Shown: positions 1,557 through 5,838 of the stretch, piece after piece | Position numbering within the stretch: the stretch's first letter is position 1 | Layout: each line of letters begins with the position of its first letter | Virus record (IMG/VR): IMGVR_UViG_3300046167_000253 | Span: 1 to 20,322 of that record | Reading direction: 5' to 3' (one strand) | Origin: a virus | Length of the DNA stretch: 20,322 nucleotides | Notes under the pieces: model-generated | Told to the model about the DNA's origin: nothing | The model's input: only the letters and a program-made list of their open reading frames with translations | Database searches by the model: none | Position numbers and translations under genes: made by a program

Positions 1557-2128
1557 GACTGCGTGTCCTTCTGTCGTTTCTGCATCTCATCGCGCTCTGT
1601 GTACGTTAGGCGGTCTTCACCTGCCATCCAATCGGCTGGGTGTACCCTTGATGCCACTGGATTAATTTGAGTGGTGTATTCGGGCTGTAAATGCCTCATG
1701 CCTTCCTGCTGCATCCGCTCGGCCTCTTTGCGTTCGTTCTCTCGGATCGTCTGAACGACTGGCTGCTTCAGTTGGTCGTACTTGGTGAAGCAATCCACGA
1801 ACTGCGCCAACTTTAGGCGTTCGTAGTACGGTCCAAAGCTCTCTTTAGCCATCATGTACAGGCACAGGCGCCAATCTTCAAGGGTAAACGTTGGAAATTG
1901 CTGGACAAGCTCGTTCACCGTCATTGCAATGTGTTCGGGTTCTGTTAGTGTCTTGTTCGCGTCGATAAACTTGACGCAGCGGCCTAGCATACCGATCAGC
2001 GCGGCCCGTGTTGGTGCTTCGTCGCAGACTAATGCCGTGCGCACGTTCGTGCCTTTAAAGCACGTTTCCACCGTCAGGCGTGATACGTCCAGTTCTTGCA
2101 AATTCTGCAAGCTTTTCGCGGTTGACAT
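1553..2128 (-). CDS. Replication-associated protein, possible lambda-P-like helicase loader (191 aa)
   Basis: Follows the O-like initiator, as gene P follows O in lambda. The recognisable part is FPTFTLEDWRLCLYMMAKES, then YYERLKLAQFVDCFTKYDQL, similar in layout to helicase-loader C-terminal regions where a 'leucine-threonine-x-glutamate' helix precedes a 'Y' plus charged helix. The C-terminus is charged (ENERKEAERMQQEG). The frame is open up to an ATG at 2260 (235 aa), but that would overlap the initiator by 206 nt, so I chose ATG 2128, which still overlaps by 74 nt; a TTG near 2110 is also possible. It ends overlapping the next start by ATGA. The helicase-loader role is an inference from order and weak sequence pattern; it may simply be a conserved replication-region protein. 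Confidence 0.7.
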   Translation of the reverse strand: MSTAKSLQNLQELDVSRLTVETCFKGTNVRTALVCDEAPTRAALIGMLGRCVKFIDANKTLTEPEHIAMTVNELVQQFPTFTLEDWRLCLYMMAKESFGPYYERLKLAQFVDCFTKYDQLKQPVVQTIRENERKEAERMQQEGMRHLQPEYTTQINPVASRVHPADWMAGEDRLTYTERDEMQKRQKDTQS

Positions 2129-2798
2129 CTCTTTCAAGGTTATCCGCTCGCCGCTTGTTAGCTCTCCCGCCTTTGGGTGAGTTAAATACCAAGCCTTTCC
2201 ATCCGTTTGTAATTGCTGTATGAATTGCGTCGATGGCGTCTGTTTCTTCAGTGTGTTCATTTTGGAGTTTGATTAGTGCCCGCTGTTCGCTTTTGTGGGA
2301 TTTGTAAGTAAATCGGTGATCCGTCTTTTTATATTCTAGCCACTCAGACCATGCGGCTTCAAAGGCTTCTGTTTGCCATGGAAGAACCACAAGCAAAATT
2401 TCTTCCTTGTTTTGTAGTGTTTTAGTAATATGTTTTGTAAGTTGATTAGTACGTGTCCGTTTGCGCCCACCCCCCTGTCCGTTAGCACCCACCCCCCTGT
2501 CCGTTTGCGCCCACCCTAAAGTCCGTTTGTGCCCACCCTGTCCGTTTGCAACCACCCCCCTTTTGAGGTGGCCGCTTTGGATCAGTCGGTATATAATCTT
2601 TCGAGTACGGTCTTCGCTTATGCCGAGCGCCTCGGCTAGTTTGGCGTTGGTCATAAAGCAAGCCTTACCATTTTCCGCAAAGCTGGCAACCTCAGCCAAT
2701 AGAATACGATCCATCGGCGCGAGGTCAAGCCCCCAAATCTCCAGCGGTATCCAAATGCCTGTACGACTACCGTGGGCGCTTTTCATTGATCTGCTCAA
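2055..2798 (-). CDS. Helix-turn-helix replication initiator, lambda-O-like, with embedded origin (247 aa)
   Basis: The N-terminal domain is a winged helix of the phage replication-initiator type: TGIWIPLEIWGLDLAPMDRI, ending in a recognition helix region (MTNAKLAEALGISEDRTRKI, then YRLIQSGHLKRG). The middle (about residues 80-115) is a Gly/Arg/Gln-rich linker encoded by five DNA repeats. The C-terminal region (EAFEAAWSEWLEYKKTDHRF, then AITNGWKGLVF) matches DnaD/O-type C-terminal segments that contact the helicase or its loader. Proteins of this type bind iterons located in their own gene, as lambda O does. A second ATG at 2786 (MKSAHGSRTG) is an equally good start. It overlaps the upstream HTH gene by 32 nt. 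Family and role are well supported by architecture. Confidence 0.8.
   Translation of the reverse strand: MSRSMKSAHGSRTGIWIPLEIWGLDLAPMDRILLAEVASFAENGKACFMTNAKLAEALGISEDRTRKIIYRLIQSGHLKRGVVANGQGGHKRTLGWAQTDRGVGANGQGGGRKRTRTNQLTKHITKTLQNKEEILLVVLPWQTEAFEAAWSEWLEYKKTDHRFTYKSHKSEQRALIKLQNEHTEETDAIDAIHTAITNGWKGLVFNSPKGGRANKRRADNLERDVNREKLAEFARTGRITPDGGNVL
2454..2560 (-). repeat. Five iteron-like direct repeats: candidate replication origin
   Basis: Five tandem copies share the + strand core GTCCGTTTGCGCCCACCC with few substitutions; copies begin at 2454, 2476, 2498, 2520 and 2539, giving spacings of 22, 22, 22 and 19 bases. Three copies end in a run of six C. The spacing is not a multiple of three, so the copies are translated in different frames of the initiator and give unlike peptides (GQGGHKRT versus LGWAQTDRG), which means the DNA, not the protein, is conserved. 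An AT-rich stretch flanks them at 2395-2450. This is the layout of lambda ori: iterons plus an AT-rich unwinding segment inside the initiator gene. Confidence 0.75.
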
Positions 2799-2991
2799 TT
2801 GTTTCGGCTACCGCGTCGAATAGCTGCAACGGCTCCACGCCGTCCAGCTGTATGATTTGACCACTGTGCTTCAATATGCCTGACGGGTTACGGAAACAGT
2901 AATTTTCTACCGTGCGGCGGGTTACGCCAAGATCATCCGCGCACCTGTCTACCGTCTTGTAATGTTGCTTTATAAACTGTCTCAGATTCAT
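2767..2991 (-). CDS. Small helix-turn-helix DNA-binding protein (74 aa)
   Basis: A compact HTH protein of the Cro/XRE or YdaS-like size: the N-terminal half reads LRQFIKQHYKTVDRCADDLG then VTRRTVENYCFRNPSGILKH, i.e. a helix-turn-helix with TRRTVENY as the likely recognition helix. The C-terminal half (PLQLFDAVAETIEQINEKRP) is a probable dimerisation helix. An ATG at 3012 would add seven residues, but MNLRQFIKQ at 2991 fits better; either start overlaps the upstream 69-aa gene. It lies immediately before the replication initiator. It could regulate the early promoter or modulate origin firing; it is also a candidate ligand of the 20-bp palindrome at 5717-5736. DNA binding is well supported, the target is unknown. 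Confidence 0.75.
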   Translation of the reverse strand: MNLRQFIKQHYKTVDRCADDLGVTRRTVENYCFRNPSGILKHSGQIIQLDGVEPLQLFDAVAETIEQINEKRPR

Positions 2992-3142: not shown

Positions 3143-3461
3143 CTTTTGCAGGTTGCTGGGTTGGTGCTGGATTGCCTTCTACTATCTCATACTTCCAAGG
3201 CACTAGCGACATAAATACCCGCATTGGCTGCGTGTCGTCCTTTTGCCATTCGCTGCCGCGTACGTTGCAGCGTGCTCTGATCGTCTTGCCTTCAGGCAAT
3301 GCAACGGCTTCATCTACGTCGTCTTTCAGAAACTCCAGCGCCAAGGTCTGCGGATATTTGCCATCTTGAATTTCAACGTGTACTTCACACTTTCGAAAGC
3401 CGCTTTCGAATTCCATTGGTTTACAAACGCGCTTAATAACTCCCTCAATAATCAATTCCAT
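3120..3461 (-). CDS. DUF3127-family, SSB-like OB-fold protein (113 aa)
   Basis: Matches the DUF3127 family, small OB-fold-like proteins found mainly in Bacteroidota and their phages. Beginning at MELIIEGVIKRV, the protein has alternating beta-strands (ECEVHVEIQDG-like, QTLALEFLKDDVDE, KTIRARCNVRGSEW) and ends in a disordered Pro/Gln-rich tail closing with DGADFPF. That acidic-aromatic tip is the hallmark of bacterial SSB C-termini, which recruit replication partners. In the replication operon it therefore probably coats single-stranded DNA. The frame is open to an ATG at 3518, but that extension lies inside the upstream gene and I chose 3461. The family is fairly sure; the SSB role is inferred. 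Confidence 0.8.
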   Translation of the reverse strand: MELIIEGVIKRVCKPMEFESGFRKCEVHVEIQDGKYPQTLALEFLKDDVDEAVALPEGKTIRARCNVRGSEWQKDDTQPMRVFMSLVPWKYEIVEGNPAPTQQPAKDGADFPF

Positions 3462-5220: not shown

Positions 5221-5366
5221 CGTTCTCGGTTTTGCTTTAGGTGCATTTTCATTTTGTCAATCAAGCGCAGAAACTCGCGTTCCTCGGCTAGGTCTTGCTG
5301 CCATTGGTTGAATGACGTCGGGGCTGTTACTTGTACGCTAGAGCGCACGCAAATAGGTTTGTTCAT
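5217..5366 (-). CDS. Small early protein (49 aa)
   Basis: Too short for routine ORF calling but well supported: its ATG overlaps the stop of the 37-aa gene upstream (ATGA) and its TGA overlaps the start of the VirE-N gene (ATGA), so translation is coupled on both sides. The first 20 residues are polar; the remainder (DLAEEREFLRLIDKMKMHL followed by a basic KQNRER tail) is a likely amphipathic helix. No family recognised. Position as the second gene behind the attenuator marks it as one of the earliest proteins made. Confidence 0.65.
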   Translation of the reverse strand: MNKPICVRSSVQVTAPTSFNQWQQDLAEEREFLRLIDKMKMHLKQNRER

Positions 5367-5476
5367 TGGTCTAGTTTTTCGTCTTGGTATTTGTCGTGTT
5401 GTTCGTCGGCCTCTTCAAAAAAGTCACGGCCTTCGTCTTCGTCGTCTGCTGGGTAGTCGTATCCTTCGCGCCACAT
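5363..5476 (-). CDS. Small, very acidic early protein (37 aa)
   Basis: A 37-residue ORF made almost entirely of acidic and polar residues (YPADDEDEGRDFFEEADEQ, then KYQDEKLDQ). Its TGA overlaps the next ATG (ATGA). The start ATG lies only three bases behind the U-tract of an intrinsic-terminator hairpin, so its translation initiation region includes that U-tract and its expression depends on read-through. No family recognised. Extremely acidic small early phage proteins are sometimes DNA mimics or inhibitors of host enzymes (T7 Ocr and Gam are much larger examples); that is only a suggestion here. Confidence 0.6.
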   Translation of the reverse strand: MWREGYDYPADDEDEGRDFFEEADEQHDKYQDEKLDQ

Positions 5477-5479
5477 GGT

Positions 5480-5512
5480 AAAAAAATAAAGCCCCGCCCG
5501 AAGGCAGGGCGC
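5480..5512 (-). terminator. Intrinsic terminator / attenuator before the early operon
   Basis: On the minus strand GCCCTGCC (5510-5503) and GGCGGGGC (5498-5491) form an 8-bp stem with one U-G wobble, closed by a UUCG tetraloop and followed by TTTATTTTTTT (5490-5480). The wobble becomes a mismatch on the plus strand, so it is built to act on minus-strand transcripts. It lies between the 57-aa leader gene and the start codon of the 37-aa gene, so it must be read through for early expression. Confidence 0.85.
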
Positions 5513-5516
5513 TGGG

Positions 5517-5690
5517 TTATTTTTTGAGTCCTTGAAGAATTAAGGTAAATCGGACTAAACATTCTTTTAGTGTATAATATCTGTCTGAGTTCATCTCAGT
5601 AGTTGCCAATTCTAATTTGATGTTGTCAATTTGATGTTGAGTAAAAGTAGCTGCGTTTGTCATGGTGTTGTTTGTTTGTGCGTTGTTCAT
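5517..5690 (-). CDS. Leader-position small protein (57 aa; 48 aa from second ATG)
   Basis: Lies alone between the probable early promoter and the attenuator hairpin, whose 5' flank begins right at its stop codon (the AAAAAATAA at the end belongs to both). The first nine residues are Asn/Gln/Thr-rich; a second in-frame ATG at 5663 gives a 48-aa protein beginning MTNAATFTQHQID. The body looks like two amphipathic helices (IDNIKLELATTEMN, then YYTLKECLVRFTLILQGLKK). No family recognised. Because translation ends immediately before the terminator stem, ribosome occupancy could influence hairpin formation; it could also encode a regulator of read-through. If the promoter is placed correctly, the first ATG would be almost leaderless. 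Confidence 0.6.
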   Translation of the reverse strand: MNNAQTNNTMTNAATFTQHQIDNIKLELATTEMNSDRYYTLKECLVRFTLILQGLKK

Positions 5691-5694
5691 GGTG

Positions 5695-5725
5695 CAATGA
5701 TACGCATCTTTTTTCGTTACGCAAA
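5695..5725 (-). promoter_or_regulatory. Probable early promoter, Bacteroidota type
   Basis: Read on the minus strand: TTTG (5725-5722), a 19-base spacer, then TATCATTG (5702-5695), matching the Bacteroidota -33 TTTG and -7 TAnnTTTG consensus with one mismatch. The first ATG of the leader gene begins four bases after the -7 box. It is the only such match in the stretch between the late terminator and the early genes. The TTTG box is part of the 20-bp palindrome at 5717-5736. Confidence 0.5.
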
Positions 5726-5736
5726 CTTTTGCGTAA
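5717..5736. promoter_or_regulatory. 20-bp palindromic operator candidate
   Basis: TTACGCAAACTTTTGCGTAA: perfect 9-base arms (TTACGCAAA / TTTGCGTAA) around a 2-base centre. It is in the non-coding gap between the late terminator and the leader gene and covers the putative -33 box, the usual position for a repressor dimer. The phage's own small HTH protein (2767-2991) is one possible binder, a host factor another. Confidence 0.6.
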
Positions 5737-5762: not shown

Positions 5763-5790
5763 AAAAAAAGGCCACCCCGTTGGGCAGCCC
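5763..5790 (-). terminator. Intrinsic terminator at the end of the late operon
   Basis: On the minus strand GGCTGCCC (5789-5782) pairs with GGGTGGCC (5777-5770) around loop AACG, with two G-U wobbles, followed by seven T (5769-5763). It lies 49 bases behind the stop of the last late gene and just before the early promoter, insulating the two transcription units. The wobbles would be mismatches on the opposite strand. Confidence 0.8.
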
Positions 5791-5838
5791 TTTAAATCAA
5801 CTTGCAAACAAACTAGGAAACAAACCTATTCGGCTAAG

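Follow-up and report, generated by a model that had tools for sequence, protein, structure and literature searches.

A predicted tandem operator over the early promoter of an uncultured phage, with a 74-aa HTH protein as its candidate regulator

The window, by which we mean the whole stretch of DNA that was analysed (20,322 bases), is an IMG/VR virus record that is classed as linear and may therefore be a fragment. In its list of open reading frames every plausible gene lies on the minus strand. The order is protease/capsid, tail-like genes, an M15 endolysin, a 61-aa ORF, a metallophosphoesterase, a gap of 148 bp and then the early genes, which include a protein with a primase-like N-terminal part, further small proteins, an HTH protein and an O-like replication initiator. 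A megablast search of the window returned no near phage record, and Rfam gave no match in the window. Among the nearest isolates, the metallophosphoesterase is 59.7% identical to that of Nonlabens phage P12024L/S and 52.4% identical to that of Flavobacterium phage 11b; for Cellulophaga phage phi14:2 the identity is 63.3% over 92% of the query. P12024L/S and 11b resemble the window in having the endolysin, phosphoesterase, gap and then Erf and SSB genes in that order, and our Erf and SSB labels were taken from the position relative to P12024L, while the HNH label at the left end was given by eye. However, the pair of dyads described below was not noticed when the gaps of these isolates were inspected by eye, and the HTH protein had no match in the phage collection searched (E up to 1). 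Our literature search found nothing on transcription control in this phage group. The features of the promoter and of the genes that it would serve are as follows.

5719 to 5734, minus strand: predicted operator O1, a perfect 16-bp dyad ACGCAAAAGTTTGCGT that extends to 5717-5736 and lies over the -33 TTTG, with its centre at about -36.5 from the predicted start
5722 to 5725, minus strand: -33 element TTTG (sequence match)
5702 to 5717, minus strand: predicted operator O2, an imperfect 16-bp dyad ACGAAAAAAGATGCGT, 17 bp from O1, with its centre at about -19.5
5695 to 5702, minus strand: -7 element TATCATTG (sequence match); TATCTTTG in many relatives
5689 to 5690, minus strand: predicted transcription start, 4-5 nt past the -7 box, placed by the spacing described for Flavobacterium johnsoniae in PMC6847099
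4696 to 5220, minus strand: BT4734-like/primase N-terminal protein of the early operon, given for context; it does not follow the operator class
2767 to 2991, minus strand: 74-aa HTH protein, the proposed autorepressor, whose third helix (25-33) bears the class difference
2055 to 2798, minus strand: O-like replication-initiation protein directly 3' of the HTH gene, given for context

Repeats of about 22 bp (TGTCCGTTTGCGCCCACCC-like) lie at 2454-2579 within the O-like initiator gene; they are iteron-like and form a candidate replication origin.

The original prediction placed a perfect 9+2+9 palindrome over the TTTG box of a Bacteroidota-type promoter in the gap. We confirmed the inverted repeat TTACGCAAAAGTTTGCGTAA at 5717-5736 on the minus strand, and it does cover the TTTG of TTTG-N19-TATCATTG (5725-5695, minus strand). 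As PMC6847099 describes it, a sigma-ABfr promoter has TAHHTTTG at -7 and, further upstream, TTTG at -33. The -7 box of the window has one mismatch to TAHHTTTG, and many relatives carry TTTG-N19-TATCTTTG, in which the box is exact. The pattern TTTG-N19-TAHHNTTG occurs once on the coding strand of the window and once more on the opposite strand, compared to a mean of 0.03 when one strand was shuffled 500 times by mononucleotides. The start position, 4-5 nt past the -7 element in the account of F. johnsoniae in PMC6847099, would coincide at 5690-5689 with the first ATG of the small ORF that occupies the first-gene slot. In F. johnsoniae most transcripts carry a leader, and translation may therefore begin at the internal ATG at 5663 instead.

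Taken by itself, the palindrome is only mildly unusual and makes weak evidence. In the 20 kb of the window its sequence has one site within 3 mismatches (0.01 expected), and when the 148-bp gap was shuffled 2000 times, 1% of the shuffles held a perfect palindrome with arms of at least 9 and a loop of 0-4. A palindrome of this kind is expected 0.33 times per window, though, and 25% of 60 shuffled windows have one. The window has a second perfect palindrome, TTCGAAAGCCGCTTTCGAA at 3392-3410 inside the SSB-like gene, which is probably there by chance. Given these frequencies, the argument rests on conservation among relatives. The expected frequency of 0.33 is also what speaks for regarding the palindrome as a chance occurrence, or as a hairpin of the transcript, with no operator function. 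We give this reading almost no credence, because in relatives the dyads are conserved as a pair and change their letters in concert, and because the palindrome lies upstream of the predicted start and would thus be outside the early transcript.

Relatives were collected from viral contigs by a search with the phosphoesterase (the best 80 of 138 matches) and by a search with the primase-like protein (17 loci, 6 of them on new contigs). In an alignment of 36 relatives chosen from the 80, the clade of the window has the same promoter and the same pair of dyads behind the phosphoesterase. Thus, the prediction of a palindromic operator over a Bacteroidota-type promoter stands, but the single site does not; it is one member of the tandem pair O1 and O2, in which the last base of O2 is the first T of the -7 box. 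The expected conservation was borne out in the same divided way, with the paired dyads kept and the exact letters of the palindrome kept only in L003, L009 and L014. A scan of viral contigs for the exact palindrome was tried as a test of conservation and rejected. It returned five contigs, three of which were close relatives; the copy in L101 lay within a gene of a phage-like stretch unlike the window, presumably by chance, and L099 was unrelated. This outcome indicates that the exact letters are the wrong test. In other genomes, O1 and O2 are both ATGCAGAAAGTTGCAT or nearly so, or both ACGAA..GTTCTT[GT]CG, and such identical changes in the two dyads suggest that they are read by a single protein.

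A scan for tandem dyads, to which no letters were supplied, covered the 5 kb that precede the HTH gene in 75 of the 78 loci in which an alignment search had found HTH homologues at the corresponding place, and in the window; L120, L143 and L177 are without upstream DNA and were left out. In loci of the close HTH classes that reach this promoter, the promoter was the best match of the scan (in L121, its second copy). The window scored 22, a value reached by none of 200 shuffled 1-kb stretches (maximum 21), but many entries score 19-21, a range that shuffled DNA can attain. At a cut-off of 19, and pooled with the first set, 94 loci passed, and 88 were kept after six of distant classes had been dropped (L165, L167, L168, L175, L176 and L077). 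These 88 locus entries, many of which are one contig fetched twice, reduce to 45 distinct combinations of operator and HTH protein. Before this count, 22 loci had been left out: 16 of two distant classes, L040, and five that start in or just before the early operon (L104, L139, L149, L152 and L159, of which L149 keeps about 250 bases before the p49 gene). O1 and O2 are spaced by 17 bp in 58 of the 88 entries and by 18 bp in the other 30. Within a genome they agree on average at 12.6 of 16 positions over 35 distinct pairs, four of which are of distant classes, and at 15.4 in the GCA class; when O1 and O2 are taken from different classes, they agree at only 9.1. Because the scan itself selects symmetry and likeness between O1 and O2, the mean symmetry (4.6 and 5.0 of 6) and the mean likeness of 12.6 are inflated, and the contrast between classes is the safer part of the result.

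Some further dyads were seen in the relatives. L004, L024 and L026 each carry two such promoters in series; the second lies 3' of the first slot gene or genes and has an O1/O2 pair of its own, of the CGT class. In one subclade a further dyad of the CGT kind, [TC]CACGCAAACGAGTGCGTAA, lies 3' of the HTH gene (L016 at 11555, L023 at 10847, L025 at 12294, L027/L028 at 11640). In other phosphoesterase clades, too, many loci show a promoter-like match at roughly this position, and in one of these clades (L036, L047 and L048) a perfect 16-bp palindrome TCCAAAATATTTTGGA lies over the -33 TTTG, about 510-528 bases behind the phosphoesterase. A tblastn search with the HTH protein (E up to 1) over L033-L055 found no homologue except in L035 and L040, and for this reason L036, L047 and L048 were kept out of the family; their palindrome may be an operator that serves a different, unrelated regulator.

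The 74-aa HTH protein is encoded about 2.7 kb downstream of the promoter in the same direction. No model in Pfam or NCBIfam matched it above the curated cut-off, and its PHROGs matches were weak. An AlphaFold model made with 24 aligned sequences has a mean pLDDT of 95.9 and five helices (3-11, 14-21, 25-33, 36-47 and 54-71). The helix at 25-33 is in the usual place of a recognition helix and reads RRTVENY in one class and LRTIKNW in the other. The structural matches of the model are modest, with Cro, MOR and HigA-type regulators among the nearest solved structures (Foldseek best E 0.8, Z 5-6). In VIA the top match was an enzyme, 6b9s (Z 6.1), followed by the E. coli protein 2eby (5.9), Xfaso 1 Cro (Z 5.6, rmsd 2.4 over 59) and the TP901-1 CI-MOR entry 6tri (Z 5.5); BFVD gave one match, to an unnamed entry, with an E of 8.6e-4. 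By HTH profile, the best solved relative was Gp37 (4j2n), which we take to be a mycobacteriophage excisionase, with an E of 0.0015 over 24 residues (13-36).

The original prediction named this protein as a candidate regulator of the operator, and the co-variation of the operator class with the HTH class now supports that, as far as sequences can. Over the 45 distinct combinations, the class of O1 and O2 tracks the N-terminal half of the protein. The helix motif [RH]RT goes with CGT at the end of the right arm of O2 in 38 of 38 distinct combinations (75 entries), and LRT goes with GCA at that place in seven of seven (13 entries). As for INDEPENDENCE, kinship makes the genomes non-independent, and class changes were counted on quick trees. 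When the tree was built from phosphoesterase DNA (34 rows), the operator and the HTH protein each switched class three times, and they agree in all three independent pairs; these are too few for significance in a sign test (p 0.25). As a control, quick gene trees were built from both sides for 29 genomes (11-29 rows each; 14 of 15 genes had enough rows). The HTH tree was the sole one of the 14 that needed one change of operator class. The other 13 needed 2-5, namely two for MWREG and for SSB and three to five for the remaining eleven, with three for the primase-like gene (11 rows) and four for the initiator. Within the HTH gene, residues 1-36 need one change and residues 37-74 need two.

It could be argued that the agreement reflects block linkage within one recombining early module, in which some other early gene is the true regulator. 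The mere two changes on the MWREG and SSB trees would fit this, our family searches covered only part of the early proteins, and L035 is a further point in its favour. That genome differs in class from the window at O1, at O2 and in the N-terminal part of the HTH protein, and along with this part the DNA from about 4700 to 2990 diverges too. Its identity to the window is 97-100% over 6100-5901, 91-98% over 5300-4701 and 91-100% over 2800-1601, but only 67-89% over 7200-6200 and 66-87% over 3600-2900, and these low-identity stretches make L035 a mosaic of several tracts and not a clean swap of two sites. Nevertheless, the single change is unique to the HTH tree, the primase-like DNA between operator and HTH gene does not track the class, the initiator needs its four changes although it too has an HTH domain, and the difference between classes lies in the third helix of the HTH protein. 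We therefore consider block linkage very unlikely as the explanation, and keep the 74-aa HTH protein as the probable reader of both dyads. The reading is not a matter of one residue. L040, with an HTH protein of 42% identity and the helix SRRTVYNY, has a single TGCAATAATTTGCA dyad (TGCA-N6-TGCA) over its -33 box; it breaks the simple rule of helix and class, and R25 alone does not set the half-site. In the distant HTH classes EKT (L164-L176) and SNT (L056 and others) the tandem-dyad scan gave low-scoring "pairs" but no credible one.

We suggest that the HTH protein shuts off its own early operon, and we hold this with reasonable confidence for a probably lytic phage of a Flavobacteriia-like host. 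O1 would cover the -33 box of the early promoter and O2 would reach from the spacer into the -7 box. The HTH protein would be made downstream, presumably from the same transcript, and a dimer on each dyad would block RNA polymerase; once enough of the protein had been made, its own operon would go off, early in infection. Sites that span both promoter elements point to exclusion of the polymerase, and since the HTH gene follows downstream with the same orientation, the simplest interpretation is negative feedback. The dimeric protein and the early shut-off of the original prediction are accordingly kept here as what we infer to be the most economical readings. MerR-type regulators act from inside a promoter spacer, and this precedent, together with the off-consensus -7 box of the window, might be cited for an HTH protein that activates the promoter, or an early-to-middle switch, from O1 and O2. 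Both are weak points. A protein on the -33 box at O1 and up to the -7 box at O2 should keep polymerase out, the -7 box matches the consensus in many relatives, and the early genes need to be on before any HTH protein exists, so activation seems to us highly improbable.

The original prediction saw no lysogeny genes in the window, and this agrees with a search for tyrosine integrase, serine recombinase/resolvase and ParA (PF00589, PF00239 and PF13614), which were found in none of 24 records, all of them fragments, the window included and one chimeric. The chimeric one is the L084 contig, which was still counted. It belongs to a 40.3-kb record, IMGVR_UViG_3300048115_000173 (L084, L180 and L181), that was considered as a near-complete genome and rejected: about 23-40 kb matches the window, the first 23 kb or so is mostly unlike it and has a second tail-like gene set, and the record is likely a chimeric assembly. 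PF01381 gave two weak matches and none above the cut-off in the 24 records, which excludes little because the model also misses the 74-aa HTH protein. Two short peptide patterns, searched for HTH relatives in 84,980 bacterial genomes, gave 63 pattern matches and no relatives. With no integrase, resolvase or ParA in the 24 fragments and no HTH relative in these genomes, lysogeny is unlikely, and the loop probably times a lytic infection. Could the HTH protein still be a CI-like or other lysogeny regulator of a temperate or plasmid-like phage, with O1 and O2 as immunity operators? The classic arrangement for immunity is an HTH protein with tandem operators, two specificities swapped between genomes resemble immunity groups, and Gp37 is the best profile match. 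Yet besides the negative searches above, no plausible divergent gene, opposing repressor gene or divergent promoter was seen beside the gap, where the plausible genes all run in one direction, and the regulator is located within the early gene run. We regard a lysogeny regulator as unlikely, and return to autoregulation in a phage that is probably lytic.

In lambda, Cro and CI act on tandem operators of about 17 bp over an early promoter, with feedback on the early operon. The layout described here is similar in its tandem operators over an early promoter, and the modelled HTH fold has Cro among its nearest structures. The differences are that no fold match exceeds a modest Z of about 6, that an integrase was not found in the records searched, and that a divergent promoter or opposing repressor gene was not seen. 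Another parallel is offered by the Aca proteins of acr-aca operons, small HTH proteins in an operon under their own control (PMC9410906). In the account given there, an Aca promoter is a strong early promoter with one or two inverted repeats, one always within the core promoter and the second similar, and the cognate Aca protein represses acr-aca promoters by about 90% on average. Here, O1 and O2 lie over the -33 and -7 elements, and a small HTH gene lies downstream in the same direction, presumably co-transcribed. Unlike in Aca systems, the HTH gene does not adjoin the first gene but sits beside the replication initiator, about 2.7 kb away; no anti-CRISPR gene is known from this locus, the dyads are 17-18 bp apart and both over promoter elements, and the promoter is of the Bacteroidota type. 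Repressor specificity and operator motif also diversify in cluster A mycobacteriophages, where according to PMC6550527 the N-terminal HTH and a C-terminal part both matter and evolve differently. Those phages are temperate, with many asymmetric sites along the genome as PMC9283540 describes, in contrast to dyads at one promoter here (two in L004, L024 and L026). In our reading, the present system is a form of Cro/Aca-like autoregulation in which the HTH protein has no library model, the tandem dyads span a promoter of the Bacteroidota type, and the two specificities can be exchanged.

Between the operator and MWREG, the first core gene of the early operon, lies a slot for the first gene. Its features, with the hairpins on either side, are the following.

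5763 to 5793, minus strand: terminator-like hairpin AAAGGGCTGCCC AACG GGGTGGCC TTTTTTT behind the upstream lysis/phosphoesterase genes (fold z -1.94, 6 of 200 shuffles as stable)
5517 to 5690, minus strand: small ORF in the first slot, 57 aa, or 48 aa with a 27-nt leader if it starts at ATG 5663; relatives have differing ORFs here
5491 to 5510, minus strand: terminator-like hairpin GCCCTGCCTTCGGGCGGGGC with a T tract, located after the slot gene and ahead of the remaining early operon, just before the start of MWREG (fold z -2.94)
5363 to 5476, minus strand: MWREG ORF, 37 aa

In 49 slot stretches, distinct by exact 700-base sequence, we counted 58 ORFs of at least 33 aa, some of which may not be genes; they fall into 32 blastp families, of which two represent core genes of the operon. 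Four of the 49 stretches have an empty slot, with the promoter meeting MWREG directly. The slot ORF of the window matches phrog_13462 weakly (E 0.00087), and ten representative slot ORFs had no match in Pfam, two of them having weak PHROG matches to families of unknown function. This variety fits a docking place for early accessory genes, and the ORFs are candidates for early accessory or anti-defence genes. As for the hairpins, simple hairpin scans had missed the one at 5763-5793, which was seen in the sequence and then folded, and the silence of the finder elsewhere therefore means little. The hairpin GCCCTGCCTTCGGGCGGGGC recurs behind differing slot genes in several relatives and is a possible attenuator. 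It stands between the promoter and the HTH gene, so co-transcription would require read-through. However, the slot gene of some relatives continues into MWREG, and together with the four direct junctions this makes the hairpin look like an optional feature and not a core one.

In archaeal viruses, anti-defence genes were found by way of a strong early regulatory sequence that is conserved before early genes (PMC11065993, as described there), and by analogy the slot behind the operator pair may be likened to these early regulatory sequences and to acr-aca operons. The archaeal viruses belong to another domain of life with another promoter machinery, and here an anti-defence role of the slot genes is a candidate role. 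The operator pair flags the first-gene slot, and the roughly 30 small-ORF families seen there make a short list in which to look for anti-defence or takeover genes. The system also offers a regulator-operator pair with two natural specificities in uncultured phages, suited to a swap test. If phages without lysogeny genes hold and swap repressor specificities, the selection on them must be non-lysogenic, either for timing of their own genes or for a block to superinfection. As a speculation that we rate as possible but doubtful, these could be immunity groups without lysogeny, in which the CGT and GCA pairs are mutually blind and are exchanged by recombination because a phage that is already replicating in the cell represses the early promoter of a newcomer of the same class, while the slot served by this promoter holds mostly anti-defence or takeover genes. 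If this were true, the operator pair would serve as bait for anti-defence or host-takeover genes in phages of the Flavobacteriia.
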